From positions 7,338,501 through 7,402,500 of the forward strand of contig CP126191.1 in assembly GCA_030272155.1 (NCBI GenBank): a stretch of DNA of 64,000 nucleotides. Reading direction: 5' to 3'. The notes under the pieces were generated by a model, which was not told where the DNA came from, did not search any database, and worked only from the letters and a program-made list of their open reading frames with translations. The translations under genes and the position numbers were made by a program. Positions 33,012 to 64,000 of the stretch are shown here, in pieces. Numbering within the stretch: the first letter of the stretch is position 1; each line of letters begins with the position of its first letter. The DNA is from Tetradesmus obliquus. Taxonomy: Eukaryota; Chlorophyta; Chlorophyceae; Sphaeropleales; Scenedesmaceae.

Positions 33012-35394
33012 ATGCTTGCACAGCGGCCATGTATGTCGATGGCTCAATTGAGCCGATCGCGCTGTGTAAATGTTTCAGCGGTGGCGGGCTCCACCAGCAC
33101 CCCAGGTTACGCGTATCAAAAAGTGCAGAAGGACAACAGGGAGCCAAGGGCGGAGAACGTTGCAGGAAACTTCTGGGTGGACCACACATGCATTGGTGAG
33201 TCTTTCAAGTCCTTCCTGGTGCATGCCACCAGCCAGCAAGCGCGCAGGCTGCTCAATGCACCAGCAGGTGTTTGCTAATGCTGTGCATGCTCTTGGATGC
33301 ATGCAATGCACTTGTGGCCTTGTCGTGAACTTGAACTAGGCGTCGCTGCCAACTTATGTCAACGATTTAATCTTTTGCAATGGTGCTGGCTGCCTGCAGA
33401 CTGTGACACCTGCCGCATGATGGCACCAGAGACATACAGCAGGATGAACGACCAGTCAGCAGTGCACCAGCAGCCCTCAGACCGCAAGGGCAGGGTGCGG
33501 GCACTGCAGGCGCTGCTGTCGTGCCCAACGTGAGTATCACAGCCTTCTGCACACCCGCTGTACTCCTGCAGATAGCCGCAGCAGCAGCAGCTGGGCCAAG
33601 GAACTCCTTATCACGGCATGCATGGGCCACGGGGCGCATAATGGGTGGTGCGGGTGGTGGTAGCAAAGCTGCAGCCATACGCACACAGGAGTTGCTGACA
33701 TGTTCTGGGCTCAGCCTCTCCTCGCTTTTGTGAGTTTGTTGACACATGTCGGCCCTTGGCCACTGCTGGGTTGTGCGCATCTGCAGTGCTTGCTTTGCAA
33801 CCAACCAACTGCTGCTTTCCTTGCAGTTACTCCATCCACGTGAATGAGAGGAGCGCAGATGAGTTGAAGGAGGCTCAGGCTGGTATGCCGCTGCCCGTGC
33901 CCGGTACCGCCAACTGCTACAGCTGCGGATGGTAAGGACTGACATCAAGTTGCTCAGCAACCACTGCAGCAGCATACCTCAACTGAAACATGTTTGAATC
34001 TCTGCTGATGTGTACGGTTGCAGCACAACACTGTTGGCTCAACTGCTGCATTAGCAGGCCCTACTGCATGCGCACGGGTGACAGTCTGGTCCCTGTACGC
34101 GGCCAGCTTAGCAGCAGCAGCAGCAACAGCAGCTGCGTTCCCAACCCTTGTTATGACATGCTCACTGCACTCAAATGTGCCCCTGCTGGCTGTGCCATGC
34201 TTGCTGCAACCGCTCCAGGCGCTCCGAGAAGACGTTTGGTGGCGAGGGCTTCCTCATCACGCGCTCACAGGGCAACGTGCTGGTGGACGCCCCCCGCTTC
34301 AACCCCGTGCTGGCCAAGCGCATCGCGGAGATGGGCGGCATCAAGTACATGTTCCTCACACACAAGTGAGTGGGCCTGGGCGCATGCCGCTGCTGCGGGT
34401 GCTCGAGCCTCACTGCCATAGTAGACAGTGTACATCGTCTTAACCTAGTGTGTATATGTGAGAGGCAGTACTGTTTTTACTTAACAGTTTCCAGAGCAGG
34501 TGTCATGTGCAACGTTGCAAGTTGAGCACACGCTAACAGTTTCCAGAGCAGGTGTCATGTGCAACGTTGCAAGTTGAGCACACGCTGTGTACGTATGGCT
34601 TGGCGTGCTCTTTCTGCTGCAAGAGCAACATCATTTTAGGGCTGCTGAGTTGCTACTGTTGCATGTCGGCGCGCTCCTGTGTGTGCAGGGATGACGTGGG
34701 CGACCATGAGCGCTGGGCGAAGCACTTCAATGCGCAGCGCATCCTGCACGCGGATGAGGTGGTGCCAGACACACAGGCAGTGGAGGTGAAGCTCACAGGT
34801 GCGGCAGCAGGCCCTGAGGCAGCCCCGGCAGCACATACTCAGCACAGTGCAGCTCAGCTTGGTGCCCCCTAGAAAGCTGCGCGTTTTTAGCGCAGCGTTT
34901 CACTGCCACACACCACCAACGCTCTGCTGTGGAGCCAGCTGCTGCTCACTCCTGCCAACTACCACCAGCACGCTGACGCTCATCGCCCATCTGCTGCGGC
35001 ACTTGCAAATGTGCGCTGCTGTGCAGGCGAAGGGCCCTGGCAGCTGCCAGACGGCAGTGATGACATCACGCTCATCTTCACGCCTGGCCACACTGAGGCA
35101 CACGTGTGCCTCTACTACGCACCCGACAAGGCCCTGTTCTCAGGCGACCACCTGTCAGCAGGCTACACACCCGAGCAGGAGCTGTATGTGTTCAAGGACT
35201 TCAACTGGTACAGCGTGCCGCGGCAGCTGGAGAGCATGCGGCAGCTGCTGCAGTATGACTGGCTGCACGTGCTGCCCTGCCACGGGCGGCCAGTGCACCT
35301 GCGTGATGCGCTGCACAGGCTGCAGGCGATGAATGAGCTGCTGGTGAGGGAGGGGCTGACGCCTGAGCTGCAGCCGGCTGCTGTCAGCAGCTGA
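33012..35394 (+). CDS. Metallo-beta-lactamase-fold protein with N-terminal single-cluster ferredoxin domain
   Basis: Six exons, 33012-33195, 33400-33529, 33827-33931, 34219-34365, 34689-34798 and 35027-35394, join in phase to 347 amino acids. After a possible transit peptide comes a 4Fe-4S ferredoxin-type domain with ligand cysteines in CIDCDTC (split by intron 1) and SCPT. A hydrolase domain follows: GGEGFLITRSQGNVLVDAP, then YMFLTHKDDVGDH for the first metal motif, TPGHTEAHV, SGDH and PCHGR for the later ligands. The same two-domain arrangement occurs in a land-plant chloroplast protein (At4g33540, from memory), so this is an old plant-lineage fusion. The usual HxHxDH motif is altered: HKDDVGDH lacks the second His and is longer. 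The substrate is unknown; coupling of a redox centre to hydrolysis is inferred. Confidence 0.9.
34483..34586. repeat. 52-base perfect tandem duplication in an intron
   Basis: Copies at 34483-34534 and 34535-34586 are identical, starting AACAGTTTCC and ending GCACACGCT. They lie in intron 4 of the metallo-beta-lactamase gene and do not touch its splice sites. Perfect identity points to a recent duplication. Confidence 0.95.
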
Positions 35395-36464: not shown

Positions 36465-39190
36465 ATGACGATGGCCCAACACCGATGTCACTGCAGCGCT
36501 AGCAGCAGAGGCAGCAGTACTGCACTTTGCAGCAGCAACACCAGATTCCTGAACCGGACAGCTGCGACCCGTGCAGTGCTGTGCGCCCCCAGGCAGCACA
36601 CCAGCAGCTGGGCACTGCGGGCTACCGCTGTGGACCACTTGATCATGAATGTAGATGGCTTCAATGCCACCCAGGCAGCTGCAGCATACCCGCCGCTGGC
36701 ACAAATGGAAATGGAAGAGTTTGCCCTGAGCAATCTGGGCGTCATCCAGTCTCTCATTCCTGCAAGGATTCAAGGACAGCTGTTCACACACCACCCACAG
36801 CTGCTGGAGACTGACATGCAGGTGAGGATGATACATGTAGCTTGCGAAGCTGGCTACACAGACCTGCCTCATGGGCCATGCTCCACTGCTGGCACGATCC
36901 GATGCATGCATGGCATCCCACATTCACTGCATATGTCTTTGACTGATGATGTGTCATGCGCTAACTGTGTGTGCTGCAGGCGTGGCTGGACTTTTTGCAG
37001 TCGTTTGGGCTGCAGGAGCAGCAGATTGCCGACATCCTGCGCAGCAGCCCCGAGCTGTTCTACTCCAGCAACATCTTCCAGGTGCGCGCCTGGCAGTTAA
37101 GCTTCAGCAGCAGTCATCAAGCTACGTGCAATGCTGGCGCCAGTCAGGATAACAACAAGCAGTCACACACGACCAACCTCAACTGTATACTGCGGTGTTC
37201 AAGCTGATAGCCAGCATGCCCTGCTGCTGCTGGCATTTGCTGCATTGCATCCGCCTGCAGGCTGGCCAGCTGCTGCTGTTTCTACGGCAGAACCTGCAGC
37301 TGCCTGACGACGCGCTGCTGCCCCGGCTCAAGTGGGCTGCAGCGCTGCGCCCCGACAGCAGCCAGGCGTCCATGCAGGCAGTTGTGCAGGCGCTGCAGCA
37401 GCACCTGCCGCTGCGTGAGGAGCAGCTGCTGCCTGCGCTGAGCCTGTTCCCAGATGTGCTGGGCTGGGACGTGCAGCGGGAGCTGCTGCCCAAGCTGCAG
37501 TTTTTCGACAGCCTGGGGCCTGCAGGCAGGCGGCTGTTGGACACCATGTACGAGGAGCATACAGGATACCTGCAGGTGTGAGGCCGTACTCAGCAACACC
37601 ACCAGCAGCAGTGGATGCATACACACTTGCCGACCTTGTTGCCGAATGGCAGCAGCTGTGCACCCGTCCAGTTCAGGGGCTTGCAGTCACCTTCAGTGCC
37701 TGCTGGTGCGGCTGCTCCCTCTGTATGCCTTCTTGCAGGGCCTGCGCAGCTGGAGCTACGCAGTGGCGCCCAAGCTGCAGCTGCTGAGCGAGGTGCTGGG
37801 CAGCGAGCAGCAGGCGGCAGCGCTCATCGCCAGCTGCCCAGCTGTGCTGAAGCTGCCAGTGGAGGCCAAGCTGCAGCCTGTGCTGGGTTGCCTTGCTGCT
37901 GCTGGGGTGAAGGGTGAGCAGCTGGCACAGCTGCTGAGGGGCTGCCCCAAGCTGCTGGCTGAGCCGCGGGAGAGCATCGTAGCCAGGTGGGTGGGATCAA
38001 AGGGTGAGAGGAACAATCAGATGCTGCGGCGGTTGCAAGCTTGAAGCACCAGCTGTTTGTGCCGGCTGCCCTGCATTCATGCAGCTCGTGCAGCAGCCGG
38101 TGGCACAGCTGTGCCAGCCCCAGCTGTGCAAGCAATTGTCATGCTTGCCAGCTATTCAAGTCACGTATGTGTGAGCTGTATGTCTGCTGCGTAGTCTGCT
38201 GCATGCTGTGGTATCTCACTTGCTTTCGAGCAACTTTGAACCTGGCATGCATGTTAATCCAGGCGTGTCCTACCCCTGTGCAGGATCAACTTCCTGGTCG
38301 ATGTGATAGGCGGTGACGTGAGCGACCTGATGGCTTACCCCCAGTATGCCATGCTGTCACTGGCTGACACCGTCGGCCCCCGCTACTACTTCCTGGCGCG
38401 TCAGGGCTGGCTGGAGGCCTTCAGCGAGCCCAGCAGTGGCAGCCTGCAGCTGGCTCGTGTGATGCAGCCGGAGCTGACGGCCTTCCTGGCTGATGTGGCA
38501 CAGGTGAGGGGGGCGGACTGTGGCACAGGTGAGGGGGGCGGACTGTGGCACAGGTGAGGGGGGCGGACTGTGGCACAGGTGAGGGGGGCGGACTGTGGCA
38601 CAGGTGAGGGGGGCGGACTGTGGCACAGGTGAGGGGGGCGGACTGTGGCACAGGTGAGGGGGGCGGACTGTGGCACAGGTGAGGGGGGCGGACTGTGGCA
38701 CAGGTGAGGGGGGCGGACTGTGGCATGCAGCCGCACCAACAGCTAGCAGGAGAGCAAAGCAGGCCGGAGCCTGTGTGCCAGGGCTGGTGGCTTTACAGAT
38801 GGAGTGACAGCAGTAGCTGTATAGTGCTTTGGTGTATGTTTGCTTCTGGTTGGCTGGCCATGTCGTACATGCACCATGTTTGCTGTGTTTCTGTGCAGCA
38901 GCTCGTCATCGCAGGACGTCACAGCCAGCAGAATGCTCTCAAAAGCAACCAAGAAACACCACACCACATTCCGTATGCAGCAATACAGCCGTGTATTGCC
39001 TTGATGCTGCTGTAATCAGGTGTCTGGGCAAGACATTGGGTCAGCAGCTACTGCCTATGGGGAGATGAAGGTGGAGTGGGACAACCTGCTGGGCTGGTGC
39101 TGCGACAAGGCCTTCAGCAGCCAGGAGGAGCGCGCAGGCAGCAGCATGTACGAGGAGCAGCTCAACCTGTTCTACGTGCTGGTGCAGTGA
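36465..39190 (+). CDS. Organellar mTERF-domain protein
   Basis: Six exons, 36465-36821, 36980-37081, 37261-37575, 37739-37986, 38284-38503 and 39020-39190, join in phase to 470 amino acids. The start MTMAQHRCHCSASSRGSS and the following Ser/Thr/Arg-rich residues look like an organelle transit peptide. The body is a chain of roughly 30-residue helical repeats with the mTERF mark of Leu-rich helices and a Pro: LGLQEQQ-type segment then ILRSSPELFYSS, ALSLFPDVLGWD, ALIASCPAVLKLPVEAKL, LLRGCPKLLAEP, DLMAYPQYAMLSL. mTERF proteins bind organellar DNA or RNA and affect transcription, splicing or ribosome assembly. Which organelle is served is not resolved. The last exon (GEMKVEWDNLLGWC) is outside the repeats. 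Intron 5 starts inside a minisatellite that copies its own splice donor. Confidence 0.92.
38501..38725. repeat. 25-base minisatellite, nine copies, at the exon 5 splice donor of the mTERF gene
   Basis: Copies begin at 38501, 38526, 38551, 38576, 38601, 38626, 38651, 38676 and 38701 and are essentially identical. Each contains CAGGTGAGGG, a good 5' splice site. The first copy holds the real exon 5 end (38503). The unit is not a multiple of three. Confidence 0.97.
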
Positions 39191-40329: not shown

Positions 40330-43300
40330 TTATGCCTCCACCTTCTTCTTTTTCTTCTTCTTCTCGCCGTCTGCTTCCGACTTCTTTGACTTCTTGGCCT
40401 TCTTGGGAGCCTCCTCCTCTGCAGCAGCAGCAGCAGCAGCACTAAGAGAGTAAGGAACAAGCCTGGAACAAATGCATATATACGCAGAACAAACCTGGCA
40501 CATATGCGGCAACGGCTTCCAGAACAACAAGAGATACATGTGTGAATGGTCTGCTGCTGCTGTGCTGGTGCTGGCGCTGGCTGTAGCTGCAGCAAGCTAA
40601 GTGCCCGACCACCGCCCGACATACACGTGCTGCGCCCCGCACCTGCTGCGTCCTCCTCCTCCTCTGCTGCGCGCTTCTTCTTCTTCTTGTCCTTCTTCTT
40701 GGCTGCCTTGTCATCGTCCAGCACGATCTCCTCGTCAGCCAGCTGCCCCTTGAACTTGTCCATGGCCTCCTGCAGGGCGCAGCAGCAAGGTGTGCGATCC
40801 ACTGTGAGTGCATGAGTTGGCGCATCCATTGACATAAACAACTAGAGACGGTGCTTGTCATGCATGCTGCTGCAGTTGACTCTGGCGCCAATACCTGCGC
40901 TGGTTGTGAGCAGTGGCACCAGCAAGTCGCCTCAATACAGCAGCCCACAGGAACTGTTACTAAGATCAGCCAACCGCCCCATCATGCCGCAGCCGCCCAC
41001 CTGCATCACTGCCAGGTTCTTGCGTGGCGCCACGCCCTCCTCGTAGAAGCGCAGCCGCTCCTCCACCTGGTCGCGCAGCTTCTCACCAAACGCGCTGGTG
41101 GCGCTGTCCAGGAAGCAGTCGATGCGGCTAGCAATGCTGCACTTGTTGGCCAGGTAGCGGGAGATGCGGCCCTTGTTGCGCTGCTTGGCGCGGCCGATGA
41201 AGCTGGAGTGGAAGATGAGGCCGTACTTGGGTGTGTTGCCCTTGGTCTTCAGCGCCCTGGGGCACGAGGAAGATTTGACAGCCGGCATGACACATGGAGT
41301 TAGCAGCATACAGGGCAGCAGGCATCACAAGAGGCCCGGGATGTCTGTGCTGCCTGCAAGATTCAACCCTCACAGCGCCATACATGCACTGCGGCCGCAG
41401 CAGCACAGCAGAGCACCGACAGGCACACGCGCAGCAGCCCCTCACCTGAACAGCGCCTTCTCTGCTCCCAGGATCTGCACCGTGCTGGCCGGGTACTTGG
41501 CCAGGTTGGTGAGGCTGCCCGCGTGGCTGATCAGCCGCGCGCCGACCATCTCGCCGATCAGCGCAGACAGGTTTGGCGCCACGGTGTGCATCTTGTCGTT
41601 GAGGTAGGTGTGCAGCTTCTGGCGGTACTCGGCCAGGCTGATCACGCGCCGCGCAAAGGTCTCAATGTTGATGAGGTCAATGGCGGAGATGTCCTGACCC
41701 ATGGAGGCCTTGGCAGCATCCAGCACCTGGTGGATGATACATGGTATGGCGGTTTGGGTAAAATTAATGATTGGGGGGCGGGAGCGGAAGTCAGCAGTAC
41801 GCAAGCACGAAGAGCACGCAGCTGATGCATCGAGACAATTAGGACAGCCACTTGACGCGACACTAAGCGTGTGCCTCTGCTCAACCTCCAGATATGCACA
41901 GGCTTGCAACACAGCAAAGCGTCATAAGAGCGCTGGCTGAAACAGCTCCACAGCTCCCATACTGCTGCTAAGCACAGCTGCCTCGCCACCCAGCGCTGCT
42001 GCTTCTGCAAGCTTCTGCTGCTTCCCAAGTGCTGCGCCGCACCTCCTTGGCCTTGCCCTCGTCAGCCAGCACCTCTGCCAGCTCTGGCAGCTTCTCCTCG
42101 CTGAGGGTGCCCTTGTCCTTGACCACCAGCGCCACACGCGCATACAGGTAGTTGTCCGGCACAATCTGTGTAGGCGGAACAGCAACAAACATCAGCACAA
42201 ATTGAGCGACACATGCGACACCACAGGCAGCTGCAAAATGCTAGCACTGAAACAGCAAGCTAGACGCAGCGATGCATGAACTGACAGCAGCAGGGGGCTC
42301 CGCGCACCTACACATGCGCACGCGCCACCATGCTGACATCCTGAAGTTGAGTGACCATGCCACCGTCAACACACAATTCAGCCTGTGATGTAATGGCTGG
42401 CGTGCCCATCTACTATCCTACGATACTAATTGCACGTGCTGCTGCTGGCATGGCAGCACTGCATCAGCCCGCGGCCCGCCACGCACCTTGACCAGCTCCG
42501 GGAAGTGCCAGCTGTACCACTCCCTCACGCGCATGATGAAGGTGTTGATGTCCTTGTCCAGCGTGTCCAGCAGCGCGATGGCCTGGATGACCATGTTGTC
42601 CACCTTGTTCACGTTGAACTTCACCTTGGCGCGGCTGTACGAGTGCGCAAGACCCAGCTGCGCGCGGCGCAGGTCTACGGACGCAAGCACAAACAAGACG
42701 AGGCAGGCAGGCACATGCTAGTGAGGAAGCGTTGTGCTGGCAGACTGCTGACTGCTGCTGTTCACCACTAACGTCCATTATGCCAGATAGATGCCAGCCT
42801 ACTGTACAAACTGCAGAGGTATCTCGTGTGCTGCCGCCACCAACCGCTGCTCACAAGCCCGCACACCGCCACCAGCAGCAGCCGCCACCCCGCCTCACCC
42901 TCGTCCTTGAGGTTGTCGATGAAGCGCGTGAAGTGTGCGCGGATGCCGCGCAGCAGCTCGCCGATGAACTCGTTGCACACGCAGGGCACTGCTGTGGCCT
43001 CCTGGATGGCGCTGCCCAGCTTGGGCTCAGCCACGCCCAGCTGGAACTTGGCCTTCTTGCCGTCCTTCACCTGCGCGTGTGGGTGATGTGTAGCGGCAGG
43101 ATGCGTCAGCTCACCCGGTTGTCGCGTCTGTGGGGCATGCAGTATGGCGCGTGCCTTGTGCAGTGCACGGTGGTGGTGAAACGAAGCTGCTGATGCACTG
43201 GCCTCACCAAGCAGAAGAACTTTTGCTACTGCTCCATGGCATAGCACGCGACACAAGCTGCTGCTTGTTGGGTGCTTCGTGCTTTGTCGCAAGAGAGGCA

Positions 43301-44244
43301 GCGGCGGCGGCAGTCGCACAGGGTGCGCCTGCTGCTGCCCCGCTACCACACCCGCCATGCTGCGATGCTGTCCTGCTGCTGCTGCTGCTGCTGTTGCTGC
43401 TGCTTGAGCATTTAACCTCCACTGAGCCCCAGGCCCTGGGCTCACCTTGGGCAGGTTCATGGTGAGGAAGTTCTTCAGGTCGTCTGTCAGCTGCGCCTCG
43501 CTCACTGCGTTGATCTGCTCCAGCGCATCTGCTGCTGATGCAAAGGGCTTGAAGGCAGCCAGCTTGGCCACCTTTCCAAAGCGCTGCACATCGCTGCAGG
43601 TGCAAATATCAAAGATCCATGAAAAGTTGTGTAAGCACAGGTTGTGGTGTACAGACATGCTTGCAAAGCTGATGCCAGTGGGGCAAGCCAAACTGGTGCG
43701 CTGCATGTTGAGCTGCCAGCTCTGCAAGCAGGTGCTCCTTTGGGCCCTGATTGGCCCTTGATCGCAGCTCGTGTGATACAGCTATTCGCACTGCAGCCAG
43801 CCCGCTATTGCAGCTGCTGCTCTTGTGCAGTAGCAAGCCTGAAGTCACCACCACCAGCACCACCTCTGGCACTGGTGGAGGTTGACTGGTAGCACTCCTG
43901 CTGGTGCGGACCGAGAGCGGCTGCTATGCCACTGCCCTGCTGCTCATCCTGGCCCTGCCGCCAGCCGTGCACACCTGACGCTCTCCTGCACCTTGTCTGC
44001 TGCCTGCCCAATCTCATCCAGCCCCTTGATGTCAAACAGGGCAAAGCCTGAGGCTGACTCATACAAAATGAAGAGTGCCTACAGCCATTGCGCAACATCA
44101 GAATACCAAGCATGAGCAGTAGCAGCAGCAGCAGTGACACGCTTAAGCTCCGCTTCTGCTGGACGGGTCACAAGGCCAGCAGCGAGTAACAGCTTCAGCA
44201 CATCTGCAGCTTTGGCTTGATCGTCTACGTGCTAAGCCCACCAT
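40330..44244 (-). CDS. NOP56: Box C/D snoRNP core protein NOP56
   Basis: Nine coding exons after the start: 44078-43975, 43593-43446, 43070-42899, 42674-42487, 42165-42043, 41726-41446, 41256-41001, 40769-40643 and 40418-40330, all in phase. With a start exon ending at ATG (44244-44242) followed directly by GTGGGC, the protein has 496 residues. It begins [15 protein letters not shown] and KGLDEIG, as in plant NOP56. The Nop domain follows ([92 protein letters not shown]). A Lys/Glu-rich KKE/D-type tail closes the chain. NOP56 pairs with NOP58 and fibrillarin to guide 2'-O-methylation of rRNA in the nucleolus. NOP58 is excluded by the KAQLGL-type block (here [10 protein letters not shown]) and the [12 protein letters not shown]-type block. 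The ATG-only first exon is inferred. Confidence 0.95.
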
Positions 44245-49366: not shown

Positions 49367-52300
49367 TCAGCTTAGCTCAGCCACACTGGCCAGCGGCAGC
49401 ACACCGCCCCCCTCAGCCTCCAGTGCCATCAGCAGGCTGAGGTTCTTCAGGCTGGCCACGATGCGCCACACCAGGCAGCCGATGACAACGCCACACTGCA
49501 GCATCACCAGCACCACCAGCGCCAGCAGTGCAGCGCCAAAGCCCGCCGCGCTGATGTCCTGCATGGAGGGCACCACCACCAGCAGCGCCAGCAGCTGCAG
49601 CCAGCACCACGCCAGGAACTGCAGCTGGTTCATGCTGGTGCTGCAGCCAGCCTGCACACGCCAGCTCAGCGCGGCCGCGATCACCACCAGCAGCAGCAGC
49701 ACGCGCGCCTGCTCGTCAGGCCCGCGCATGGTGGTCAGCGCGGCCGCCGCCACCAGCCCAAACTTGGCCGCCTCCCTGCCCGCCAGCCACCACCAGCGCC
49801 ACTCCACGTTCCACACGCTCAGCGCCGCGCAGCTCTCACCAGACACGCCCAGGGCCGAGCTGAGCCGCTGGCAGGTGCGCACCGGGCCCTCCAGCCAGGT
49901 GAAGGGCAGCAGGCACGCCCGCTTGAGCAGCGCGCAGTAGCTGGCCAGCGCGCGCAGCAGCCGCGAGCTGGCCTTGCAGGCGGCCACAGGCGCTGGCGAG
50001 GCGGGGTGCTTGGGCCAGGCCAGCGTGAGCAGCAGCAGCCAGTAGCCGACCAGCAGCGGTATGCCTATGAGGATGGCCACAGCCATGGCTGCCAGCTGCT
50101 GGGGTGAGCTGCAGGAGAGCTGCATGTCGGGCACCCACACGCTGCGGGTGACCTGCTGCTCGCCCGGCACGCCCTGCCTGGTGCTGAGCGACATGCAGTT
50201 GAAGGCCGCGGTGAGCGTGGCCACGTAGAAGCTGTAGCAGTAGGCCATGGAGGCTACAGCCACGGCCGCAAACAGCGTCCACGTGCCGCTCTTGACGGGC
50301 CAGAAGCGGGACAGCCAGCCGCAGCCGCGCCTGGCGCCTGCTGATGCCGCAGCAGCCGTGCTTGCTTGTGCTGGTGTGTCCTTGGACGCTGCTGGTGCTG
50401 CTGCGCGTGCCAGCACGTGCTGCCTGAACAGCGCACTGTCCCTTGACAGGTCCACCAACCACAGCAGCAAGGGAGAAAGCACGAGCGTGTAGATGACTGC
50501 AGGCAGCGGCGAAAGGGCGGTGGATGTCCAAGTAAAGCGCGAGCAAGTAGAACAGCGAGCTCTGTGACAAGCACGCTGTGTCACATGCGTGCCCAGCAAC
50601 CATTTTGAGCCATGGACTGCACTGCATCAGTGGCCAACATGCAAAGGCATATGTGAAAGGACACAGCACTGTATGCCTGCGCACAAGTCGATCATAGGCA
50701 CCATCCCCCCGCATCAATGTATGCATCAGCATGTCTGCATACACATTGATTTTGCGCACTGCAAGATAAGCAGCGCTTGCAGTTGCGCCAGGTGCCCCTG
50801 CCCCAGGCGCTCACCTGGCAGCAGCATCACCGCCACCGTCTGCGCCACCGCTGCCGAGGCCTGCGAGCCTCCCGGGATGAGGCACTCAAAGGGCACGTAC
50901 TGCCAGGTGTGCGCCTGCGTGAGCAGCACCCCCGCCAGGCCCTGTGCCGCCCAGTCGGGCACCAGCAGCACCAGGTCCAGCGACAGCAGCACCGCAGCCA
51001 CCTGCGCAGCATCAAGCAGCACCTGCAAGCATGCCAGCACAGACAGGGAGCACAAATGAACTTGGCTTATTAACCAGAGGTTTGCTAATCATCAAGAGGA
51101 TTGCATGCACCAGAGCGACAACAAACACTCCAGTAGATGCTTGTTTAAACCTTCACCGAGGCTGTCTTGATGCATAAGACAAGGGCGACAGTCAAGGCAT
51201 CATACACAGCAGCGCTGCCAGAACTGTGCAACATGCCGCTGCGTGGTCTGCAGCCGTCTCCAGCAGTGCGTCCCACCTGCGCCAGGCAGGCCAGGTGCTT
51301 CACCGCCATCAGCAGCAGCGCAGCCTGCTGCCCCAGCACGTCATCGCCACCCCCCTGCTGCGACATGTTGGCGGGGCTGCTGCCATGGCCATGCATGTAC
51401 TGCTGCCGCAGCAGGTCCACCACGCTGACAGCAGATGACCAGCGCATGCTGGCTGGCCGGTAGATGTGGTACAGCCCGCCGCTGAAGACCCTGCTGGCAG
51501 CACCTTGCAGGGAGCTCCCTGATGGCTCACTGACCAACATGTGCTGCACCGACGGCTGATCTACCAGGCTGAATGGACTGGTGTAAGCAGGCCCGACAGC
51601 TGCTCCTGCAGGTGGCATCACCCTGCTGCCATTTGGTAGTTCCATGATGGCACCGGGTCCAGTGCCCAGCGGCTGTGTGACAGAGGCCTGCAGCTGCAGG
51701 TGGGCATGCTCCACTGGTGGGCCGCTAGCCTGCCTTGCGGCACTCTCACGCACTCTCATGCTGCTGGGTTGGTGCCTCATCTCACGCTGCATCTCCTTGT
51801 TGAGGGTGGCGCTGCGTGCGGCTGAGGCGTTGCTGCTGGCTGCCGAAAAGTAAGCCTCACTGAGGGTCGGTGCTGCTTGCAGGCCACCTTTAATGGAGAG
51901 CGCCGAGCCGAAGATGCTGTCGCGCATCTTGAGGGAGGCCATGCGCTGGTGCTTGAGCTGCACAAACGCAGTGGCTGCGGCCGAGTGTGACAGCCAGCCG
52001 TACAGCAGCCACAGCGCCGCCATGCACCCAATCACAAGCAGGTCCAGCAGCCGTGACAGCAGGAAACCCAGCCAGGCGGCAGCCAGGTGGGGGCAGCGGC
52101 GGCAGCGGCCGCTGGCCTTGCCGTACACCTCGCCGCGGCCAGCCATGCCGCCCGCCCGCCCGCTAGCGAGCACCACCTGGTCACCCAGGGTGAAGCCCTG
52201 CTTGGGGCCGCCGGCCCGCTCCAGCTGCTGCAGCAGCCACAGGTTGCGGCCCGGCCTGTAGCAGCTGCTGCAGAAGGGGCCTGCGCGTGGTGTTTGCGGC

Positions 52301-53721
52301 ACAAAATGGGCGGCAAGGCGGGTGCGTCAGCAGCGACGGTGAGATTGATCTTACAGCGCACAGCCTGCACTGTCCAGCACTGTAATTTCTGCTGCATGGG
52401 GTGCGCGGCTGCATCACTGCTTTCACATGCAACTGCAGTCAAACTTTTGCAAGCCCTTGCATGCAGCAGGCATGGCTCTTCTGTTGGCTGCCGTTGGAGG
52501 CATGGCAGCCTTCACAAGTCTAGCACGCACCTGCGTAGCCTGCGCTGCACTGCAATGCCGTGTAGGGCTGTGGGTCTATGTCTGCGGGGTCAATGTAGCG
52601 CCTGTTGGCGCACTGCAGCCCCTGCAGGTTGAGCGTGGCTGTGGCGTTGCGCTGGCAGGCGCGCACGTTGGGGCAGCGGCGGATGACAGTGCTGCGTGGG
52701 TGCACCTGGAATGCGCCAGACTCCGGGATCACCATGCCTGCAGGAGCGCACAGGCAGTGGGGGTGTTCAAACACACTTCAAACGTACTCGCTCAAAAAGG
52801 CCAGGGTGCGCTTATGGCCCAGATCATGGTAACATAAGGTGATAATCAAACCGATGGTGGCTGCATTCAACAGTAAGCCTTGCACAAGCATCGCAGCACA
52901 TGCGCTACAAACACACGGCTGGCATGAGCTGCCGCATTGGCACTGCTGCAGTGTCAGCACCCAGCCTCACCGGCTACGCAGATGCCCCGCTCAGGGCAGC
53001 TCTGGCAGATGTCCTTCTCACTGGCTGCTGCTGCTGCTGCACCTGGTGGCGGGTATGCACTGAAGCTGAAGGTGGGGGCGGCACAGGTGCGGCAGCTGAC
53101 GCTGCTGCTGGCCTGGCCAGGCTCACTGCTGACTGTTGCATACTCCCCAGCGAGGCATGGCCTGACCAGCACGTCAATGGTGGCGGACAGCGGCTGCAGC
53201 AGGACCGGCGCCACAATAGAACAGAAACAGAAACAGCAAATCCTTGTCAGTGGCAGGTGCGTGGCGACAGGCTGCATGCAGGCAGATTGAAGGTGGTCCT
53301 GCAAGCTTGGCAGTTGCAAACTGCACTCAATGTTAAGCAGAGCATTGGGGTGTACGCTACTGGCAGCTACCACATGCAGCGCACACCTTGTCGCCGCTGC
53401 CTGGTGGTGGCACAGCGCTCAGTGTCAGGTTGAGCCTGCTGCCGGGCTCCGCCTGGATGGACAGCCCCTGCAGCACCACGTAGCCGCCAGACAGCGCGCC
53501 GCGCATGTTGCCGGACAGCGTGCGCGCGCCGCCGCTGTTCTGTGACAGCGCCACGATCCAGTCGCTGCCCGGGCCGCGCCGTGCCTGTGAGCCAAAGGCG
53601 TCCAGCACGCTGACGGGCAGGGAGAAGTTCTGGTTGGCGCCCACCGCCATGGCGTGCTGCGCTGTGATGGAGGCACCCAGCGCGGGGCAGAAGGGCTGCA
53701 GGGTGTCGCCTGCAGCAGCGG

Positions 53722-53756
<35 letters not shown>

Positions 53757-56700
53757 TCAGAAAACCGCACGCAGTGTCCTTTGTATGTCTGCAGGTACAC
53801 GGCAGGGAGCTGGGCCGCCCTCACAAATGTTGGTGTGTACAGCAACAGCACAGTTCGTGTGATGTGTGCTGACGATGGCAGCAGGCACGCTCTGCAGGCA
53901 CGCATGCAGGCAACTACAAGCGGCAGCCTGCTGCGCCCTCCCCCACTCACTCGTTGCAGCTGTTGGAGCTGGCGTTGTCCTGTAGGTGCTGTTGACCTGC
54001 TGTTTGATGTCAGCTGTGGCGCTGGACACAGCAGCAGCAATGTCACTTCCTGGTGGCAGCGGTAGCTGCTGCAGCCTCCTGCCTGTACTGCCCTGTTTGG
54101 GCTGCTGCTGGCTCTGCTGCTGCTGTTGCTGCGCTGCTTGCGCGGTTGCTTGAGGTTGAGGAGCAGCCACACCCTCCTCGTCCTGCGCTGTGTGCATCAG
54201 AGACAGCGTGGTGGGGAAGGAGGCCACTGCCGGCCCATAGCCGCCTTCACCAACCGTGTTGCTGTCTGACAGCTGCTGCACAATCTGCTGGCGCCGCTGC
54301 TCTGCTGCTGTGGAAGCCGGGTCCTTGCCAGCATCCCCCACATTCACCGCTGCAGGCGTGGTGGTGTACAGCACGCCACCCGCCTCTGTCGCTGAGTTGC
54401 CACGCGCTGTGAGGTCTGTCACATTCACCTGGCCCGCCCTGCAGCCTCCTGCAACTGCCTCACAGTCTGCTGATGCAAACAGGGCGCCGCCGGTGCTGCC
54501 CTTGTTGCCTGTGAGGCTGTTGGCCTGGATGGTGGCTGCAGCAGCACCCGACATGCACAGCCCGCCGCCTGCTCCCTGCGCACCGCAGCCCAGCCCTGCA
54601 GTCGCTGCCCCCACACCATACATGGCCTGCCAGGCAGGAGGCAGCGCATACACGCGGCGCACCAGGCGGCTGGTCACTGCATCTTGCGTGGTGCTGCCCG
54701 CACTGTTGCTGTCAATCTTGCAGTCTGTCACAGCCACTGCGGCAGCTGTCTGCACCGCTACAGCGCCTCCTGAGCCAGCCGCATTGCTGCTGTACTCGGA
54801 CTGCTGCGTGGAGAAGGAGCCACAGTCAACGCAGCTCACAGCGCCACCAGCAGCACCTGCTGTGTTGCTGCTGCTGCGGCCGGCAGCGACTGTGGTGCTG
54901 CTGCAGCCGCTGCAGTGCAGCCAGCCGCCGTGCTGCCCGGCTTGGTTGGATTCGGAGCTGCAGTCTGAGCATGTGAGCGCGGTGGGGCCAGCTGCGGCAA
55001 TGGCACCCCCACTCCTCCCTGCAGCATGCAGCGGTGTACAGTGGTTGATGATAGGCAGGGCAGGAGTTGTGTGAGCGTCAACAGCGCATTTAGCACTTAT
55101 GTGGTTGCAGGCATGCCCACCAACTAAGCTGCATTAGCATGTGGGTCCTGCTGCTGACAGCGTACGCAGCGAGCTGATGGCGGTCGCCTGCTGGCCGCAC
55201 CTGCTGTGTTGCGTGTGAAGCTGCAGCCCTGTGCAGCCACCTGCAGGGGGCCCAGGCCTGAGTCAAGCACCACAGCGCCGCCGCTGCCCAGCCTGGCTGC
55301 ATTGCCGCTGAAGGTGCAGCCCCTCACGCCAGCAGCAACTGCAGCGCCGGCACCCCTGACCACCACACCGCCACCCACGCCCCTCTCTGCTACATTCTCA
55401 GCGAATGTGACGTTGGTGATGTTGAGTCCTGATGGTGCGTGGACAAACAAGGCGCCAGCGTCACCCCCCGCTGTGTTGCCTGCCAGGCTGCTGTCTGCCA
55501 TGCTGAGGGAGGACTGCTGCACCAGGATGGCCCCGCCAGTGGTGGAGGCGTACACCTCAGAGCCATACTGCCGCACATTCAGCCCGTCAGCTGCAGCCTG
55601 CACCAGCATGGCACACAGCACGCAGCAACGGCGGGATTGGAAACGGCAACAACCGCGACCAGCTAATTATGTGTGCTGTGTCACCCAACAAGCATCCTGG
55701 CCAGACACAACAGCTGGCTGCTTGACCGTTTGAACAGATGCTGAACAGGCATGTTTGCGCAGGCAATGTCGATGCTCGCAAGATTGGCATAACGCACGCA
55801 CCGCCTGTTGCAGCTTCCTGCGGCGGCCGCCCTCCCCAGCCTCCTCCTCCACTGCGAGGTTGCTGCTGATGTTCACTGACCGCAGCACGAGCTGACTGCT
55901 GTCTGCAGCCATGCCTGCGCCCAGGGGCGCTGTGTTGTTGTACAAGGTACAGCCCTGAAGCGTTACGTTGCTGCAGCCGAGGAAAGACAGGCCACCACCA
56001 GCAACGTCGGCGTAGCCGTCTGTTACGGTAAGGTCCGACAGCATTGCATCAGACACCTGAGCTGCTTGCATTGCGCCACCATTTCCGCCCAACGCCTGTG
56101 ACACAACAGCAGGAACACAAATAAACAACAAGCAGCAGCAGCATCAGCAGCAACAGCAGCGTTACAGCCATCAGCTGAGAACTAGCAGAATGCATGGCAG
56201 AGTTGTGCAAGCTCAGCCTCATTGTCCTAGCTGCTGCTGGCTGAAGATGCAGCACAGCAGGCAACACCACAATGCTGCACCACGTGCTGCACGCAGCAGC
56301 TGTCACAGCACCAGGCAAGCTACAGCGCAGCAAACCTCACATCATTGCCATTCATGATGATGCCTTGCATGTCCAGCTGACCCACACTAGCAAGGCGAAT
56401 GGCGCCTCCAGATCCCTGTTCAGCCGTGTTGCGCTCAAACACGCTGTCTAGAAGTGTTGCAGTAGGGCCATTGCTGAGGTAGATGGCGCCAGCATTGCCA
56501 CCCTGCGTGGCCGCAGCAGCAGGACATGGGGTGAGTGTGCTTCAAGAGAGCATAAAGAGACTGCACAGCCTTCCCGTAGCCTGAAAGCTGAGCAACAGCA
56601 GGTACGAGTTGCTGAAACAACCATACGCCAGTGTGGCAAGAAGCGTGAAAAAGCGCAGGCAACTTGATCCTGCTGATGAATTACTGCGCAATGAGTGAAT

Positions 56701-59700
56701 GCAACCGCCGTCCTGCAATGGCAGACCTCATGACCTGGCAGGAACGCGCCTGACACACTATCCCACAACCCCACACGTATCTTGATCCATCTCCTGCTTA
56801 TGTCCGCCTGCACCCCCACCTGGTTGGCTTCAAAGCTGGAATCCTTGACTGCCAAGCCCTGGTTGTACACCGCCACTGCCCCACCAAACACGCCAGCCGT
56901 GTTGTCACTGAGGGTGCAGCCTGCCAGTGCGAGCTGGTTGCCACTGCCAGCTGCCTGCATAGTGGAGAGGTGCAGCGCGCCACCATCCACACCCGCCTGC
57001 AAGCGCAGCAGCACACTCCTTTGTCACAACCTGCTGCCGCTGATCACGTGACACCATTGACGCTTTGAGAGCCGATAACTACATGTGGGTTCTGGCGCTA
57101 TCTCAGATGAGCCACAACAGGGTGAACACATGGTCTAAGATCAGAAATCAAAGCAGAAAATAGACTGTGGTGCAAGCGCTCATGCACGAACATGCATGGC
57201 AGCACCACCACCAGCCACAGGAATTCCGCAACAGACACAACCACAGCTGCTGGGTGCCAGCTGCAGGGTCAGGCAGCACACCTTGTTTCCGATGAAGCTG
57301 CAGTTGGTTGCTGCCACATCAGCGTCGTAGGCGCTCACTGCACCACCAAAATCGCCCTGGTTGTTCTCAAAGCTTGATGCGTTCAGCACCAGCTCAGTGT
57401 ACTGATTCTCCTCAATCATGACCGCACCGCCATCAAATTTTCCCTGCAGAGCTCCAGGCGCGGAGGCAATAACCAGGCAACAGTACGCATTTGATGTGCT
57501 AGGTGTTGCAGCATGTTTATGGCAGTGTTTGGTCGATGGCAATGCGCTGCCAGACAACAGTGCTTGTAACGGCATTCGCCCATGCTTCAAATGAGGCACT
57601 GCTGCTGCTTCTATTCGAGGCTGGTCGTGCAGGTGGCCTTGTTTCGGAAGCACCCAGGTAGTACTGCAACAAATCTTTTTAAAACTCACAGTGTTGCCAG
57701 AGAAGCGACAGTCGTGCACCTCCACCCTGCCTTTACTGCGTGAGTATTGAGAGGCCATGATGGCGCCTCCGGCAACCGCTTTGTTGTTGACAAACGTTGA
57801 CCGCCGCACGACGAGATTGACCGGGTACAAATTGCTGGTGCGCGTGCCGTCTGTTGCAATGGCTCCGCCGTTTTCAGTCCATGCTGCATCTTTGGCGCCA
57901 GGCAGTTGGCCATTGGCTGTGAAGTTGCAGTCAAGCATGGTGACCGAGGCAGCCTCGCCAGCATAAATGCAGCCACCCTGCGTTGCACAAGTTGCAGCAG
58001 CAGGTGAGCGTGCATGCCCAGCTACTGCGCAGTGCATTCATGCAGCAGCACTGCCTAGCTACGCAGCGGTGCGTACAAGTAACTGTGCTGCCACTGCACA
58101 GGCGCAGCAAGCATAAGTTGCGTGACGAAGTGCATAGCGCAGGGTGCTTGTTTCACATGGCTGCAGTCTGCTAAGCTCTGCTGATCAGACTTGTAGCCAA
58201 TGCTTACCGATGCTCCAGCCGAGTTGTTGGTGAACCTGCTGCGGGTGACCAGTAGGTCGCCACAGGTGGAGCAGAACAGCGAGCCGCCATTGCCATACAG
58301 TGCACTGTTGTGGGCAAAGTCGCAGTTGGTGATGGTGACGGCACCCAGAGACTCGAAGAATAGCACACCGCCGCCCTTCAGCCGCCCACCAGCCTCCTCT
58401 GCGGATTTCTGCACGGCAGACGCGGACATGTGCAGCAGGTGCATGATGCATGTTGCAGCTGATGTAAGCTGAAGGTTAAGAACCACTGCTGGAGGTAGTT
58501 GCGTCGCTGCATGACGATGCAGGAGCACCGTGCAGTGCAGACAGGCAAGCCATGGCAGGTACACACCTTAGATGCTGCATACATGCTTGTTGCCACAGCT
58601 GTGGCTGCTAACAAAGCATGCAACATGCACAAGCATCCAGCCTTGTGACGCAAAGCAGTCTGGAGCAAATTTGCAGACCGCAAATGCCTGCAGCAACCTG
58701 CTGGAATACTGTACGAACAGGCACTTGCACCGCTGGCGGGTTGCAACGGCAGCTAGCAGCTCACCCAGTTGTTGGTGAAGCTGCTGTTGAGCGCTGTAAA
58801 CTGCCCCAGCCTTGCCCCATTCACACAGCCTCCGTTGTACAGCACGGAGTTGCCAACGCATGCACTGTTCACAAACGTCACCTGCAGGCATTGCACCACA
58901 CACCAATCCGGAGTCCAGGTCAGCACCCCATGAGCACTTAGGGAGAAGTAGCCCGTGTAGTTGGGCTAAACAGGTGTTGCTGCTGCTGCTTGATGCAGGC
59001 TTTTAGCAGACACAGAAGGATCTGTGAGCGAGCATTATTGCAGCTGCTCCTGCTGCTGGTGTATCTGCAAGATGCACCAGTGGCATGACGTACAGCAAGC
59101 TATTCACTAAAGCAGCAGGCACCTGCCACCAAACCAGTCCCCACTGTGCCTTGCCTCATCAATCTCCCTGAGCAAGGCTGCCCCGCCGTCCTCTGCCAGG
59201 TCCTTTGCATTGCTGCCCTTGAGGTGTGTATTGGACAGCAGCAGCCTCTTGCCACCGCTCAAGTCCAGCGCTGTGCTGGGGCAACCATTGATGGACAGCC
59301 CCAGCAGGTCCAGACTTGAGAAGGACTCACTGCGGCAGTGGTGCAGCAGCAGCGCAGCACACACACCAGCTTTGTTGATGTCGGGACAATAACAGGAGCG
59401 TTAGCATGAAGAGAACACCAAACAACAGGCTACCACAGGGCTGTTGCTGGCTCCCTGAGGCTGCCCTGTTGCATACAATCGCCTCATGCTTTTAGTGCAC
59501 AATTTTGACAGCATCAAGCCCAGGTGCCCACCTGTTGGTGATGAAGCTGCCGTTCCGCAGGGCGCTGCACCTCACTGGCAGCAGGTCTGCTGGGGCCAGT
59601 GCAGCGCCATCTGCTGCAGCCTGCAGCCCCGCTGCTGTTGACAGCGCCCAGGCCTCACCCGGCCCTACTGCCAGCGCCTCATCCACCACCAGGGGCTTGC

Positions 59701-60150
59701 TGCTGCTTGAAAAGATGACCAGGAAGGAGCTTGGGGGTGTGGCTGCAGCCCCCCTGGCCTGTGCAATTGCTGCTGCTAGGCTGCTGGTGCTGCTGGGGGC
59801 CAGCTGCAGCACTGTGTAACCAGGGTACAGCTGTGCAGCGAGCTACACAGGCAGCGCAGCCGCAGGTCGATTGAGCTTACGAAACTGGCGGGGTTGTAAG
59901 CCAAGGTATAGGTGCATCACTGGCTGCATGCTGCATGCCGGGAGCACAAGTGCTGGATAGCACGACACCCAGCCATGAGCAGTGACTGTCGCTGTCGTAT
60001 GCTGATCACCGCGCTATACAGCTGCAGCAGCTGAATGCTCACAGACACACTCACCTCTGAAGTGGTCAGGGTTGCAGCAAGCCCAGCGGCTACCGCCACA
60101 GCACTTGCCAGTGCCCAGATGCAGCAGCAGGTGCAGTGGTGCCTCTTCAT
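49367..60150 (-). CDS. Giant polymorphic-outer-membrane-repeat (beta-helix) protein with multipass C-terminus
   Basis: Eighteen exons (5' to 3' on the minus strand): 60150-60055, 59842-59532, 59329-59123, 58864-58765 (or from 58881), 58408-58208, 57977-57690, 57443-57282, 56996-56820, 56502-56341, 56095-55802, 55597-55201, 55018-53951, 53868-53387, 53193-52971, 52737-52531, 52280-51277, 51022-50815 and 50496-49367. Phases agree throughout, giving about 2,238 residues. MKRHHCTCCCIWALASAVAVA is a signal or anchor. More than 20 repeats of the form F-x-x-N-x-A-x-x-G-G-A follow, as in right-handed beta-helix surface proteins. A Cys-rich module (CRTCAAPTFSFSAYP, CQSCPERGICVAGG, CSAGYAGPFCSSC) leads to roughly eight hydrophobic segments. 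The first is AAWLGFLLSRLLDLLVIG; the last ends near LQCGVVIGCLVW. A plasma-membrane or cell-wall protein is likely; adhesion, sensing or transport is unproven. Confidence 0.88.
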
Positions 60151-60778
60151 GCTGCTGCAGGTGTTCTATATCCGTGAGGCAGGCATCTGTGCGGATGCCG
60201 TTTTTAGATCGTGTACGTTACCACACACGTCATGAAGCATCCGCAGTACGCAGAATACACGAGGCAGATATCTTTCCGACAAGGGCTACCGTCACCGGGC
60301 CCTGCTGACGATCAAAGACTCTCATCGTGCAGATGTGACCGTCAATAAGATTTCTGAGGTGAGTCACGTTCGTTCCGCCGATTATTGAACGAATGGAAGG
60401 CTGTGGAGCATGCATCTTGGGCTTGTCGGGCTTAACACGTCCCATTCACGCAGTGACACCGCCACATGACTGAGCATCGGCACAGGATGTGCCAAATAGT
60501 TCAATACCTGCGACGTTTTGAACCTCTGCTCAGACTGCGGCATCTGCCAGCACAATCGTACTCAGCGAAATTTGTGCTTCTCCTGGTTACGTGAACCCAG
60601 CATTGCAGTAAACAGGAGCGCACACATTGATAATAAAAATCTTTCGATTATCTCCTGAGTTAAATTGTGGGACACAGCAGCAGCAGCAGTAGTGCTGCAC
60701 CTGCACCAGCTTTTCCGTCACAGGTGGCACCTGAAGGATGGGGCCCGGTGCACACCCTCCACAAGTCGCTGGCCTTGA
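60151..60778. promoter_or_regulatory. Bidirectional 5' region between two beta-helix genes
   Basis: The start codons of the two large beta-helix genes lie head to head 628 bases apart. The spacer has A/T-rich parts (AATAAAAATC near 60640) but no element I can name. Co-regulation is inferred from the arrangement and the shared repeat type. Confidence 0.45.
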
Positions 60779-63700
60779 ATGAGGGCTTGTCTCCAGCCAG
60801 TTTCAGCCTTAGCAGCAGCAGCATCTGCCTTGTTAGTGCTGCTGCTGTTGCTGCAGCCTGGCTTCAATGTGGCACCAGCAGCGGCTGCGCCCACGCCCTC
60901 TGCAGCACAGCCAGGCCTGCCTGCAGCACAGGCCGCAGCAGCACCAAAGAAGCCTGCAGCAGCAGCAGCAGCAGAGCCTGCCTGTGGGGCTGAGCCCAAG
61001 CGCCTGCAGGGCTTCCAGCCTGCAGCTGCAGCGTGCTGGGCTGAAGCAGCTGTGCCTGCTGCTGCCCTCAGCTACCAGCCATTCAGTGTGTCAGGGGCGC
61101 GGCGCGTTGCAGCTGCAACATGGGCTGATCTGCAGCGGGAGGTGGAGGCAGCTACAGGGCCGATCTACGTCACCCTGTCAGGCTCCTTGACAGCGGATAC
61201 ACCCCTGGAAGTCAGCAGCAAGCCCAGCCTTGTTGTGGTGGCTGGGCCTGCAGACATCACCTGCAGTGACAGTGCAGGGTCATCTGCGTTTGTCATACAA
61301 AGGTATGTCGCTGACAGCATCTCCTAGTCTGTATATCTCAGTGAACCCATTTGCAGTACTTTTGGGCGCAACGTTGGGCCCAAACAACATGTTATCGTGG
61401 GATGCAATTAGTGCTTAGTGCTTTGACCTGCTACCTATTCACACACCGCAGGTCGCCAGCTGTTATGCTGCAGGACTTGACCATCAGCGGCTGCAGCGGC
61501 ACAGCCATCACCGTCAACAGCACAGCAGGCGCCACAGCACCTGCACCCATCACCACCGCAGCAGGCGGCGGCCGCGCCATGCCTGCCCCCATTGTGGTGC
61601 TGAAGAACGTTGCTGTCAGCAGCTGTTCAGGCGGCAGGGGTGCTGCGGTTGCGGCCAGCAGCAGCAGGGTGGTGCTGGATGGCTGCAATTTTTCCAACAA
61701 CACAGCGCAGGGCTGCGGCGCAGGGCTGTTTGCGGACCGTGCTGCAGTGCTGGTGCTGAACAGCGAGTTCACCAACAACCAAGGCAGCAGGTGCGTGGCC
61801 AAAGCGCCTGTCAACACACAAAGCACTTGCATGCTTCTGCAAGCCCGCTTCATCAGCCTCAGCAGCGCGTATGGCAGCTGTGTGTGCACAGTCAGGCTTG
61901 CGTGCTGCCATAACCTGTGCCAGCCAGCGAGCCAACCATGTGTTAGCATTCTGCTGTGCGTGATTGTTTGCAGTGCCGGCGGCTTTGGAGACAGCTGCCG
62001 GGGTGGCGCCATCCATGCGCAGCGCAGCTGGCTGGGTGCAGCGCGCAGCTCGTTTAGCGGCAACCGCGCTGCAAACGGCTCTGCAGTGCTGCTGCTGCAG
62101 CCTGTGGGCATGTCGCAGCTGCAGGACTGCAGCTTTGAGAGCAACCAGCCACGGCCAGGTGGGGGCACAGCAAAGGCGCAGCAAGCAGCATAGCCAGCTG
62201 CAACGGCATCACGCACGCAGCAGCACTTGGCTGCAGGCCCAGCTGCAGCAGCAGCAGTAGCAATGTGCGTTGTGCGTGACTTTTACCAGTGACAGGCAGC
62301 TTTCTCGGGATGCGGTCACCATGCACAACTGATGTGTGCGCTTTCTTTGCAGCATGCACGAGCCGCTGCGCCACGCACAAGACACTGCTTAAGCCAAACT
62401 CTCTCCATGAACCACGTATTGTGTTGTATGTGCACGTGGAGCAACTCACCGGGCTGCTGCTGTGCCACCTGCTGCAGGCACCTCAGCTGACTTTGTCTCG
62501 TCTAGTGGCGCAGTGGGCCTGGTGGGGGCAGGCGTCACACATGTGCTGCAGCGTGGCGTGTCTGACTGTGAGCCTGTGAAGGACGGCCTCACAGTGGCCC
62601 GCTGCACATTTTCCAACAACACAGCTGAAATCAATGGTGAGTGCACAGCTGTCCTACAATGGACCTGATACAATAACAGATGCCACGCTTGTCAGCAGAC
62701 CAACCGCAGCCGCAATGCTATATGCAGCGTGCCTGACATGTAACACGGGTCGTGTATATAGACCAGGGCGCAATGTCTTTGATTCAAGGAATTTGTGCTG
62801 ATAGGATCAGCAATTTGCATTGCCTCACGTGTTGGCGTGCATGACACACCTTGTGCTGTAGGTGGCAGAGGAGGCAGCATATCTGTGAACGATGCATACC
62901 TGGCTGTCATCAACACAACGTTTGTTGGCTCAGCAGCCACCAGCTCACCGCCAGCTGCAAGCCAGGCAGGCCTGAAAGGCAAGGCCGGCAAGACACCTCA
63001 ACGCCAGGAGATGGCGCTTAACGGTGGCTGCATTGGCATGGATTCGTCAACGCTGTATGTTGCTGGCAGCCGCTTCAGCCGCTGCAGTGCGCACTTGCTG
63101 GGCGGAGCTATATCCATGCTTCGTGTAGCAAGCGTTATTTTGGACTCTGTCATTGATAGCGCGTCTGGTGATCAGGTATGGTTTGGGTTTCTGGGCTATG
63201 GATCACGTGGCTGCTGCTGCTGTTCTTGTTTGGTTGCTGTGGTCCTTTCTCACGGATGATGCACATCTGCCGTGCAGACCCCAGTGATTCTGAATTGCAT
63301 GCAAATGTACAGGCAGTCGCTGAAAGTTTGCTGCAGTCCGATGACTGGATGTGTTCTTGACTGCATTGCACGATGCAGGGAGGAGCCATCCGTGCCAGTA
63401 ACGGTTACCACCTGCTCAGCAATGTCTCCGTCACAAACTGCCATGCACTGAATGCGGGCGCTGGCTTATGGTTGGAGGCGTCCGATGAAATGGATGTGCA
63501 CATGCAAGGATGCACTTTGGAGGGCAACTCGCTCACAGGCAGGGGAGGCGCGCTGCGTGCAGAAAGGATAGACGAAGCCGGGGCTGTGTTCGTGCTGTCC
63601 ATCCATGACAGCAGGTTCACGCGCAACACAGTGAGTGGAGTGCGGCACTGCTGCCTGCACTGTTACTAACAGTAGCTGTGCTGGCGCCTTGTTGGCCATA

Positions 63701-64000
63701 GCCCTGCACAGTTGCTACATATATACATCAGCTCGCACACAACATCCTGCACTCAACAGATCATCTATCAAAGGCTGTGATAGTATGAATAGGCAGATAT
63801 GCAAGCCTAAGCTTGGTCTTTGCATCGGCCCTGCCTCTGCTGCTGTGTATGCAGGCCTCCTTTGGTGCCGGCCTGGCACTGCTAGCCGCAGACATAGCAG
63901 ACATCCGCAACAATGTGTTTGCCCACAACACAGCACTGCAGGCGGGCGGCGGCCTCTGGTGCAGCAACAAGGCTGTTGACACAGAAGGCACTGCCTTCCG
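60779..64000 (+). CDS. Secreted or membrane beta-helix repeat protein, 3' end outside window
   Basis: Seven exons are visible: 60779-61302, 61452-61790, 61974-62158, 62478-62636, 62862-63175, 63379-63630 and 63855 to the window end, all with matching phases. The start MRACLQPVSALAAAAS leads into [13 protein letters not shown], a strong signal peptide or anchor. An Ala/Pro/Lys-rich linker follows, then an N-terminal cap like that of beta-helix proteins (TWADLQREVEAATGPIYVTL). Repeats follow: CNFSNNTAQGCGAGLFA, SEFTNNQGSSAGGFG, SSFSGNRAANGSAVLL, CTFSNNTAEINGG, CTLEGNSLTGRGGALRA, SRFTRNT. They have the same N-x-x-x-GGA form as the divergent neighbour. The total length and the presence of a Cys-rich module or membrane domain lie outside the window. 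The gene is probably a diverged paralogue of its neighbour or a partner in the same surface system. Confidence 0.88.

Follow-up and report, generated by a model that had tools for sequence, protein, structure and literature searches.

Does the head-to-head placement of two very large genes reflect joint regulation from one short promoter, or is it a product of how such genes multiply? The question is raised by a stretch of 64,000 nucleotides from the green alga Tetradesmus obliquus (the window; C1:7338501-7402500, C1 being contig CP126191.1 of assembly GCA_030272155.1), in which gene L on the reverse strand and gene R on the forward strand begin 628 bp apart and both encode large beta-helix proteins. 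Comparison of the pair with the genome, searched as 104.66 Mb in 17 contigs, revealed a collinear inverted second copy nearby, whose identity to the first is a mosaic that extends into introns. The account we regard as probable is that L and R belong to a family of surface receptor-channels, that the pair was copied as an inverted block, and that ectopic gene conversion has since made the two copies mosaic.

The start codons lie at 60150 (-) for L and 60779 (+) for R and, together with splice-aware models, they confirm the preliminary description of two head-to-head genes on opposite strands with a 628-base spacing. L (49367..60150, -) has 18 exons, encodes 2277 residues and ends at 49367, whereas R has 15 exons, encodes 2606 residues and ends at C1:7410529, 8 kb past the window edge; the part of R inside the window (60779..64000, +) runs through exons 1-6 and 146 bp into exon 7, which is 321 bp long. 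These models used a fixed intron cost, with one R junction set by hand, and replaced an initial self-training gene model that had over-split L and R into 67 and 68 'exons'.

Blocks of the region 49,400-72,036 match C1:7442249-7464999 with both order and orientation reversed, giving the layout L(-) R(+), 32 kb of other sequence, R'(-) L'(+). The L' model (about 2117 residues) is 84% identical to L and the R' model (about 2566 residues) 81% identical to R; both read open throughout and their start codons are about 670 bp apart. The genome thus holds the head-to-head order twice, the second time inverted and 32 kb away, which shows at the level of sequence that the pair has been duplicated as a unit in inverted orientation. 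Between the copies, the ratio of nonsynonymous to synonymous divergence (dN/dS) lies at 0.32-0.53 in every part tested, consistent with constraint, the value being an average over both copies. The L' ATG aligned with the L start opens another frame (C1:7454174-7454190), and an ATG 16 bp downstream opens a frame with a signal-peptide-like stretch. Several details weaken these models: the L' model ends with an implausible 4-base exon, R' requires 17 exons against 15 in R, some indels in the second copy have lengths not divisible by three with the exon borders used, and the exon models of L, R, L' and R' are all predictions from the DNA sequence.

Near-identity of some tracts might suggest that the second copy is a misplaced haplotype, that is, an artefact of assembly. 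This is extremely unlikely, because intron identity falls to 55%, that of the intergenic region and flanks to 50-54% and that of silent sites to 50%, far past allelic divergence, and because the copies are separated by 32 kb of other sequence.

The 628 bp that separate the start codons (60151..60778), a putative bidirectional promoter, are barely above chance in their similarity to the counterpart in the second copy. As aligned, the two intergenic regions (628 and 654 bp) are 54.2% identical, compared with 50.2 +/- 2.2% in 60 shuffles (highest 55.1%). A whole-genome DNA search with the region returned one non-self match, of 154 bases at 69% on the R side of the second copy; it takes in about 110 bp adjoining the R start, the only part of the intergenic region with a detectable match. 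The conserved intergenic elements expected of a bidirectional-promoter pair were therefore not found between the copies, and the sequence does not support a conserved form of the short shared promoter anticipated earlier. Since order and spacing are kept and sequence is not, conservation lends little support to a shared promoter, and head-to-head order alone is weak evidence of co-regulation; fast turnover of promoter elements may have occurred. That selection maintains the 628 bp as a bidirectional promoter, so that L and R are produced jointly as members of one complex, is rather unlikely on this evidence: the order and similar spacing in both copies (628 and about 670 bp), a dN/dS below 1 in both genes and the alignable 110 bp upstream of R speak for it, but over its full length the region is near chance in the comparison of the copies, order following a block duplication requires no selection, and the four L-type paralogues found all lie more than 60 kb from any other family member.

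Divergence between the copies is strikingly uneven. Intron identity ranges from 55 to 99.6%: three adjacent introns at 50.8-53.2 kb are 99.1-99.6% identical, and others drop to 55-66%, a level little above that of unrelated sequence in such alignments. Fourfold-degenerate silent sites vary by exon from 50 to 100% identity, and identical runs of neutral sites reach a length of 346, whereas 2000 permutations never gave one above 67. Tracts are strongest over L exons 12-17 and R exons 10-12, which encode the later beta-helix, the stalk and the first transmembrane segment (TM). In L these include 50771..53326 (-), a high-identity tract that extends through its introns and is read as recent conversion, and 53363..55037 (-), with neutral sites 98.5% identical in each. 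Other tracts are about one exon long (L2, L18, R15 and much of R14), with limits near exon ends. Thus, L exon 18 (49379..50526, -) is 94.9% identical with a diverged intron on one side and a diverged flank on the other, and L exon 2 (59579..59858, -) is 96.1% identical between diverged introns. In R, exons 2-4 with their introns (61482..62647, +) form a tract of 91.7%. The diverged groups reach a dS of 0.38 in L exons 3-9, 0.53 in R exons 5, 6, 8 and 9 (beta-helix) and 0.51 in R exon 13 (loop); the L stretch, which encodes beta-helix (56060..59576, -), has 64% identity at neutral sites, with fourfold sites at 88-91% in exons 4, 5 and 8.

The simplest cause of such a mosaic, in which a collinear inverted copy carries patches of high identity that include introns, would be repeated gene conversion acting on an old duplication, mostly in the stalk and membrane parts. 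Weighing against this, selection on exons could account for part of the exon-bounded identity, but not for the near-identical introns. Conversion mediated by cDNA was weighed as an explanation of the exon-sized tracts but is not needed, since the diverged introns are enough to restrict tract length. A separate observation in this part of R is a 52-bp near-identical direct repeat at C1:7407234-7407393, spanning the end of exon 12 and its intron, which is present in the second copy too.

Whether inverted duplication also gave rise to the pair itself is a different matter. Family neighbours no more than 60 kb apart lie in opposite orientation in 12 of 13 cases (binomial p 0.0017), and in 10 of 10 within 30 kb; the figure is 11 of 12 for membrane-module clusters alone (p 0.0032) and 10 of 11 once the two block-copied pairs are collapsed (binomial p about 0.006). 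Three of the four inverted neighbour pairs represented in the tree are sisters there (C1:3746/3773, C5:4084/4087 and C11:2211/2225), and a four-gene cluster at C9:1397515-1460709 has the order a(-) b(+) ... b'(-) a'(+). Within that contig, 1451 is nearest to 1404 (73%, against 65 and 59%) and 1398 to 1460 (58%, against 53 and 52%). Taken together, inverted neighbours, sister pairs and the C9 order suggest that inverted duplication is the usual local mode of this family; it looks as if it has twice involved a whole divergent pair. Two observations argue in the other direction: the members of the inverted pair C6:4149/4175 do not come out as sisters in the tree, and the closest relative overall of C9:1451 lies off C9, at C3:4970723 (82%).

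For L and R the suggestion of an inverted duplication consequently divides into two. It stands for the pair as a unit and for several other family members, and it is not supported, in the form proposed, for the derivation of L and R from one gene. Common architecture, 24% identity over most of the length and the frequency of local inverted duplication in the family might favour an old duplication of a single gene, but the sister of R in the tree is C16:4231 (61%), the relatives of L are on C16, C4 and C2 (43-48% at best), and the membrane modules of the two align by profile over 176 columns and by BLAST only weakly. L and R thus belong to different subfamilies and are not nearest relatives of one another, neither being a simple inverted copy of the other, and their origin as an old inverted duplication of one gene is very unlikely.

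The two proteins nevertheless share an anatomy, which is established at sequence level: a signal-peptide-like stretch, a beta-helix, a Cys-rich stalk, one TM, a loop and 8-9 more hydrophobic segments, 9-10 in total by hydropathy. In L, exon 1 (60055..60150, -) carries the start codon and signal peptide, with a hydropathy peak at residues 8-26; exons 3-12 (53874..59329, -) encode the beta-helix with its GGxx...FxxN repeats, as judged from the gene model, Pfam and a structure model of exon 11, with a low-complexity linker in exon 12; and exons 13-18 (49367..53788, -) encode the stalk, TM1, loop and multi-TM module, placed by gene model, hydropathy and profiles. In the R gene model, exon 1 (60779..61302, +) holds the start codon, signal peptide and an Ala/Pro-rich N-terminus, and exons 2-6 with the start of exon 7 (61452..64000, +) encode the initial part of the beta-helix, supported also by Pfam and repeats. 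The description of both as large beta-helix proteins was borne out, with signal peptides in each. PF13229 is above cut-off in both (E 1.1e-22 in L, 3.3e-28 in R), and PF02415 above its cut-off in L, not in R; searched alone against the alga's own genome, the PF02415 profile found nothing at E<=0.001. Both carry the GGA[ILV]...FxxN repeats that mark Pmp-type beta-helix proteins (PF02415/PF13229). The strict Pmp pattern occurs three times in L and three times in R (shuffled maximum 1), and relaxed repeats number 16 and 14, respectively, against no more than 2 and 3 in 1000 shuffles. A 132-residue segment of L (exon 11) was modelled as four three-stranded coils (mean predicted confidence, pLDDT, 81.5), and right-handed parallel beta-helices were its top structural neighbours when Foldseek candidates were aligned with VIA-align, at middling Z (best 8.8); Foldseek itself gave no match for the segment at E<=0.001. 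With Foldseek empty and Z middling, the fold assignment rests mainly on the repeats and Pfam.

The membrane module, on which the preliminary description was silent, is what would make L and R receptor- or channel-like. The alignment of R-type modules (21 rows) contains invariant Cys, His, Gly and Pro columns. Overall identity between L and R is about 24% over most of their length, and although their membrane modules share only weak BLAST stretches, the L-type and R-type profiles align over 176 columns with probability 96.8. The predicted C-terminus of R has, after the last TM, an EF-hand-like motif, DVDGDGRVSRADI. Certain results tell against a firm reading of this region: the EF-hand matches of R are under cut-off (PF13405 12.9 against 25 bits), an AlphaFold2 model of the last exon of L, made without an alignment, was poor (pLDDT 52; too poor for a judgement of fold), and in the PDB the module has no sequence relative, the best E of 0.91 coming from two chance matches in the Cys-rich stretch only.

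Searches with the R membrane module found 23 further loci besides R and R', and with the L module four. Combined, they gave 54 clusters with a beta-helix or membrane match, 46 of them with a membrane match; one of the 46 (C10:3483887) rests on a PF06011 match of E 0.15, and the number of membrane-module loci is for that reason given as about 45. The beta-helix type, earlier called rare, is accordingly not rare in this genome. These counts are rough, as searches were run exon by exon and the best candidates alone were scored; they omit several partial matches, e.g., C2:5025682, C1:3745521, C16:4232660 and C16:4233105. Same-strand matches no more than 13 kb apart were merged, a procedure that could mask tandem copies. 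Merged matches are mostly successive parts of the query, the exceptions being same-part repeats at C1:3745521 (69 residues) and C16:4232660/4233105 (about 40-50 residues). At C16:4237790-4238309 (-), an R-type relative, the same 35 query residues are matched three times consecutively.

A possible identity for the module comes from the TRP-like family PF06011 (TRP, transient receptor potential). Six of 21 aligned members match PF06011 at E<=1 (best 3.2e-8), and the curated cut-off of 28.5 bits is exceeded at C13:2840713 and C14:2883945 (33.7 each), C3:2611951 (30.9), C14:2854163 (29.0) and a fifth locus, L041 (29.1); none of 14 prokaryote control genomes matched the profile. R is joined to the C13 PF06011 locus by direct similarity and in the tree, where it clusters with C16:4231 and the C13 relative (96/91), the C13 row being long, with 44% of columns filled, and L is linked to PF06011 through the profile comparison with the R-type alignment. 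Against this, L and R have no PF06011 match in the Pfam scan even at E<=10, three of the five PF06011 loci (both C14 loci and C3:2611951) are weakly similar to the family (E 3.5e-4 to 9.7e-4), and both modules were found together, in the exon-wise searches, in only 25 of the 54 clusters. The TRP-like reading of L and R is thus indirect, passing through relatives. In one account of fungal PF06011 proteins, Pkd2 is described as a Ca2+-permeable channel, and flavin carriers, which count against the channel reading, are also among them (PMC10732042).

We infer from these comparisons that L and R are members, in different subfamilies, of a large algal cell-surface family. The beta-helix tip would most likely contact wall, matrix or ligand, while a cation signal would most likely be passed or gated by the membrane module, itself related to TRP-like proteins; in R, the EF-hand-like motif might sense Ca2+. 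Later the pair was copied as an inverted block 32 kb away. Ectopic conversion would since have evened out the stalk and membrane modules repeatedly, leaving parts of the beta-helix, the R loop and almost the whole intergenic region to drift. Conversion as the cause of the mosaic, a surface location and a sensing and channel role are each put forward here as readings of the comparisons.

It is possible, though doubtful, that the beta-helix proteins are instead adhesins or wall-assembly proteins, with the multi-helix module a mere anchor or a non-channel transporter. Published accounts tie Pmp-type proteins to adhesion in Chlamydia and trichomonads (PMC6701047, PMC11166332), and the flavin-carrier role of fungal relatives (PMC10732042) and the failure of L and R to match PF06011 point the same way; yet an anchor would not need as many as 9-10 hydrophobic segments, or the invariant Cys, His, Gly and Pro columns of the R-module alignment. 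Trichomonad Pmp-like proteins resemble L and R as an expanded eukaryotic family with Pmp-type ectodomains, many membrane-anchored and there linked to adhesion, but they often have a single TM and endocytic motifs rather than 9-10 hydrophobic segments, a Cys-rich stalk and, in R, an EF-hand-like motif (PMC6701047). With the Chlamydia Pmp autotransporters (PF02415), L and R have in common the GGA[ILV]...FxxN coils of a parallel beta-helix (PMC11166332). They differ in having a helical membrane module, and neither the Pmp_M middle domain nor an autotransporter beta-barrel was found in the Pfam scan of L and R (two pieces per protein, to E 10). The fungal TRP-like/Flc/Pkd2 profile is matched above cut-off by some R relatives and not by L or R, and where fungal PF06011 proteins are described as having an ML or TRP_N domain (PMC10732042), a giant beta-helix stands here. 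Among titles and abstracts in the one open library covered, no paper on this domain combination or gene pair was recognised.

Polycystin-1-like receptor-channels have a very large ectodomain and a TRP-related membrane part, as is proposed for L and R, but PLAT, GAIN and REJ domains are not listed for L and R in the Pfam scan. In Y-chromosome palindromes, gene conversion homogenises two inverted arms in tracts; here, by comparison, much of each arm has diverged and the tracts are patchy, several being about one exon long. If the receptor-channel interpretation is true, dozens of large beta-helix and TRP-related proteins in an alga would be candidate cell-surface or wall-tension sensors, and the inverted clusters would provide a natural test of how conversion maintains a uniform signalling core as ectodomains and promoters evolve. 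In families of this kind, a head-to-head arrangement may be a by-product of inverted duplication and not a sign of co-regulation. A bolder extension, which we consider quite unlikely, would make L and R the obligate subunits of a single heteromeric receptor-channel, inherited and duplicated as a divergent cassette of two genes. Inverted repeats such as those on C1 and C9 would then allow conversion to keep the stalk and membrane modules alike as the beta-helix tips and promoters diversify, so that paired receptor variants share one signalling core.

Other features lie around the pair. Within the window, a tandem duplication of a 52-bp unit occupies 34482-34586 (100% matches), and a tandem repeat with a 25-bp unit, 9.3 copies and 100% matches occupies 38494-38725. 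Pieces of a Nop56/Nop58-like gene lie at 41442-43781 (-; PF01798 3.9e-39, PF08156 7.5e-9), and the 32 kb between the arms contains a piece of a Peptidase family M3 gene at L002:6632-7492 (-; PF01432 5.2e-29).

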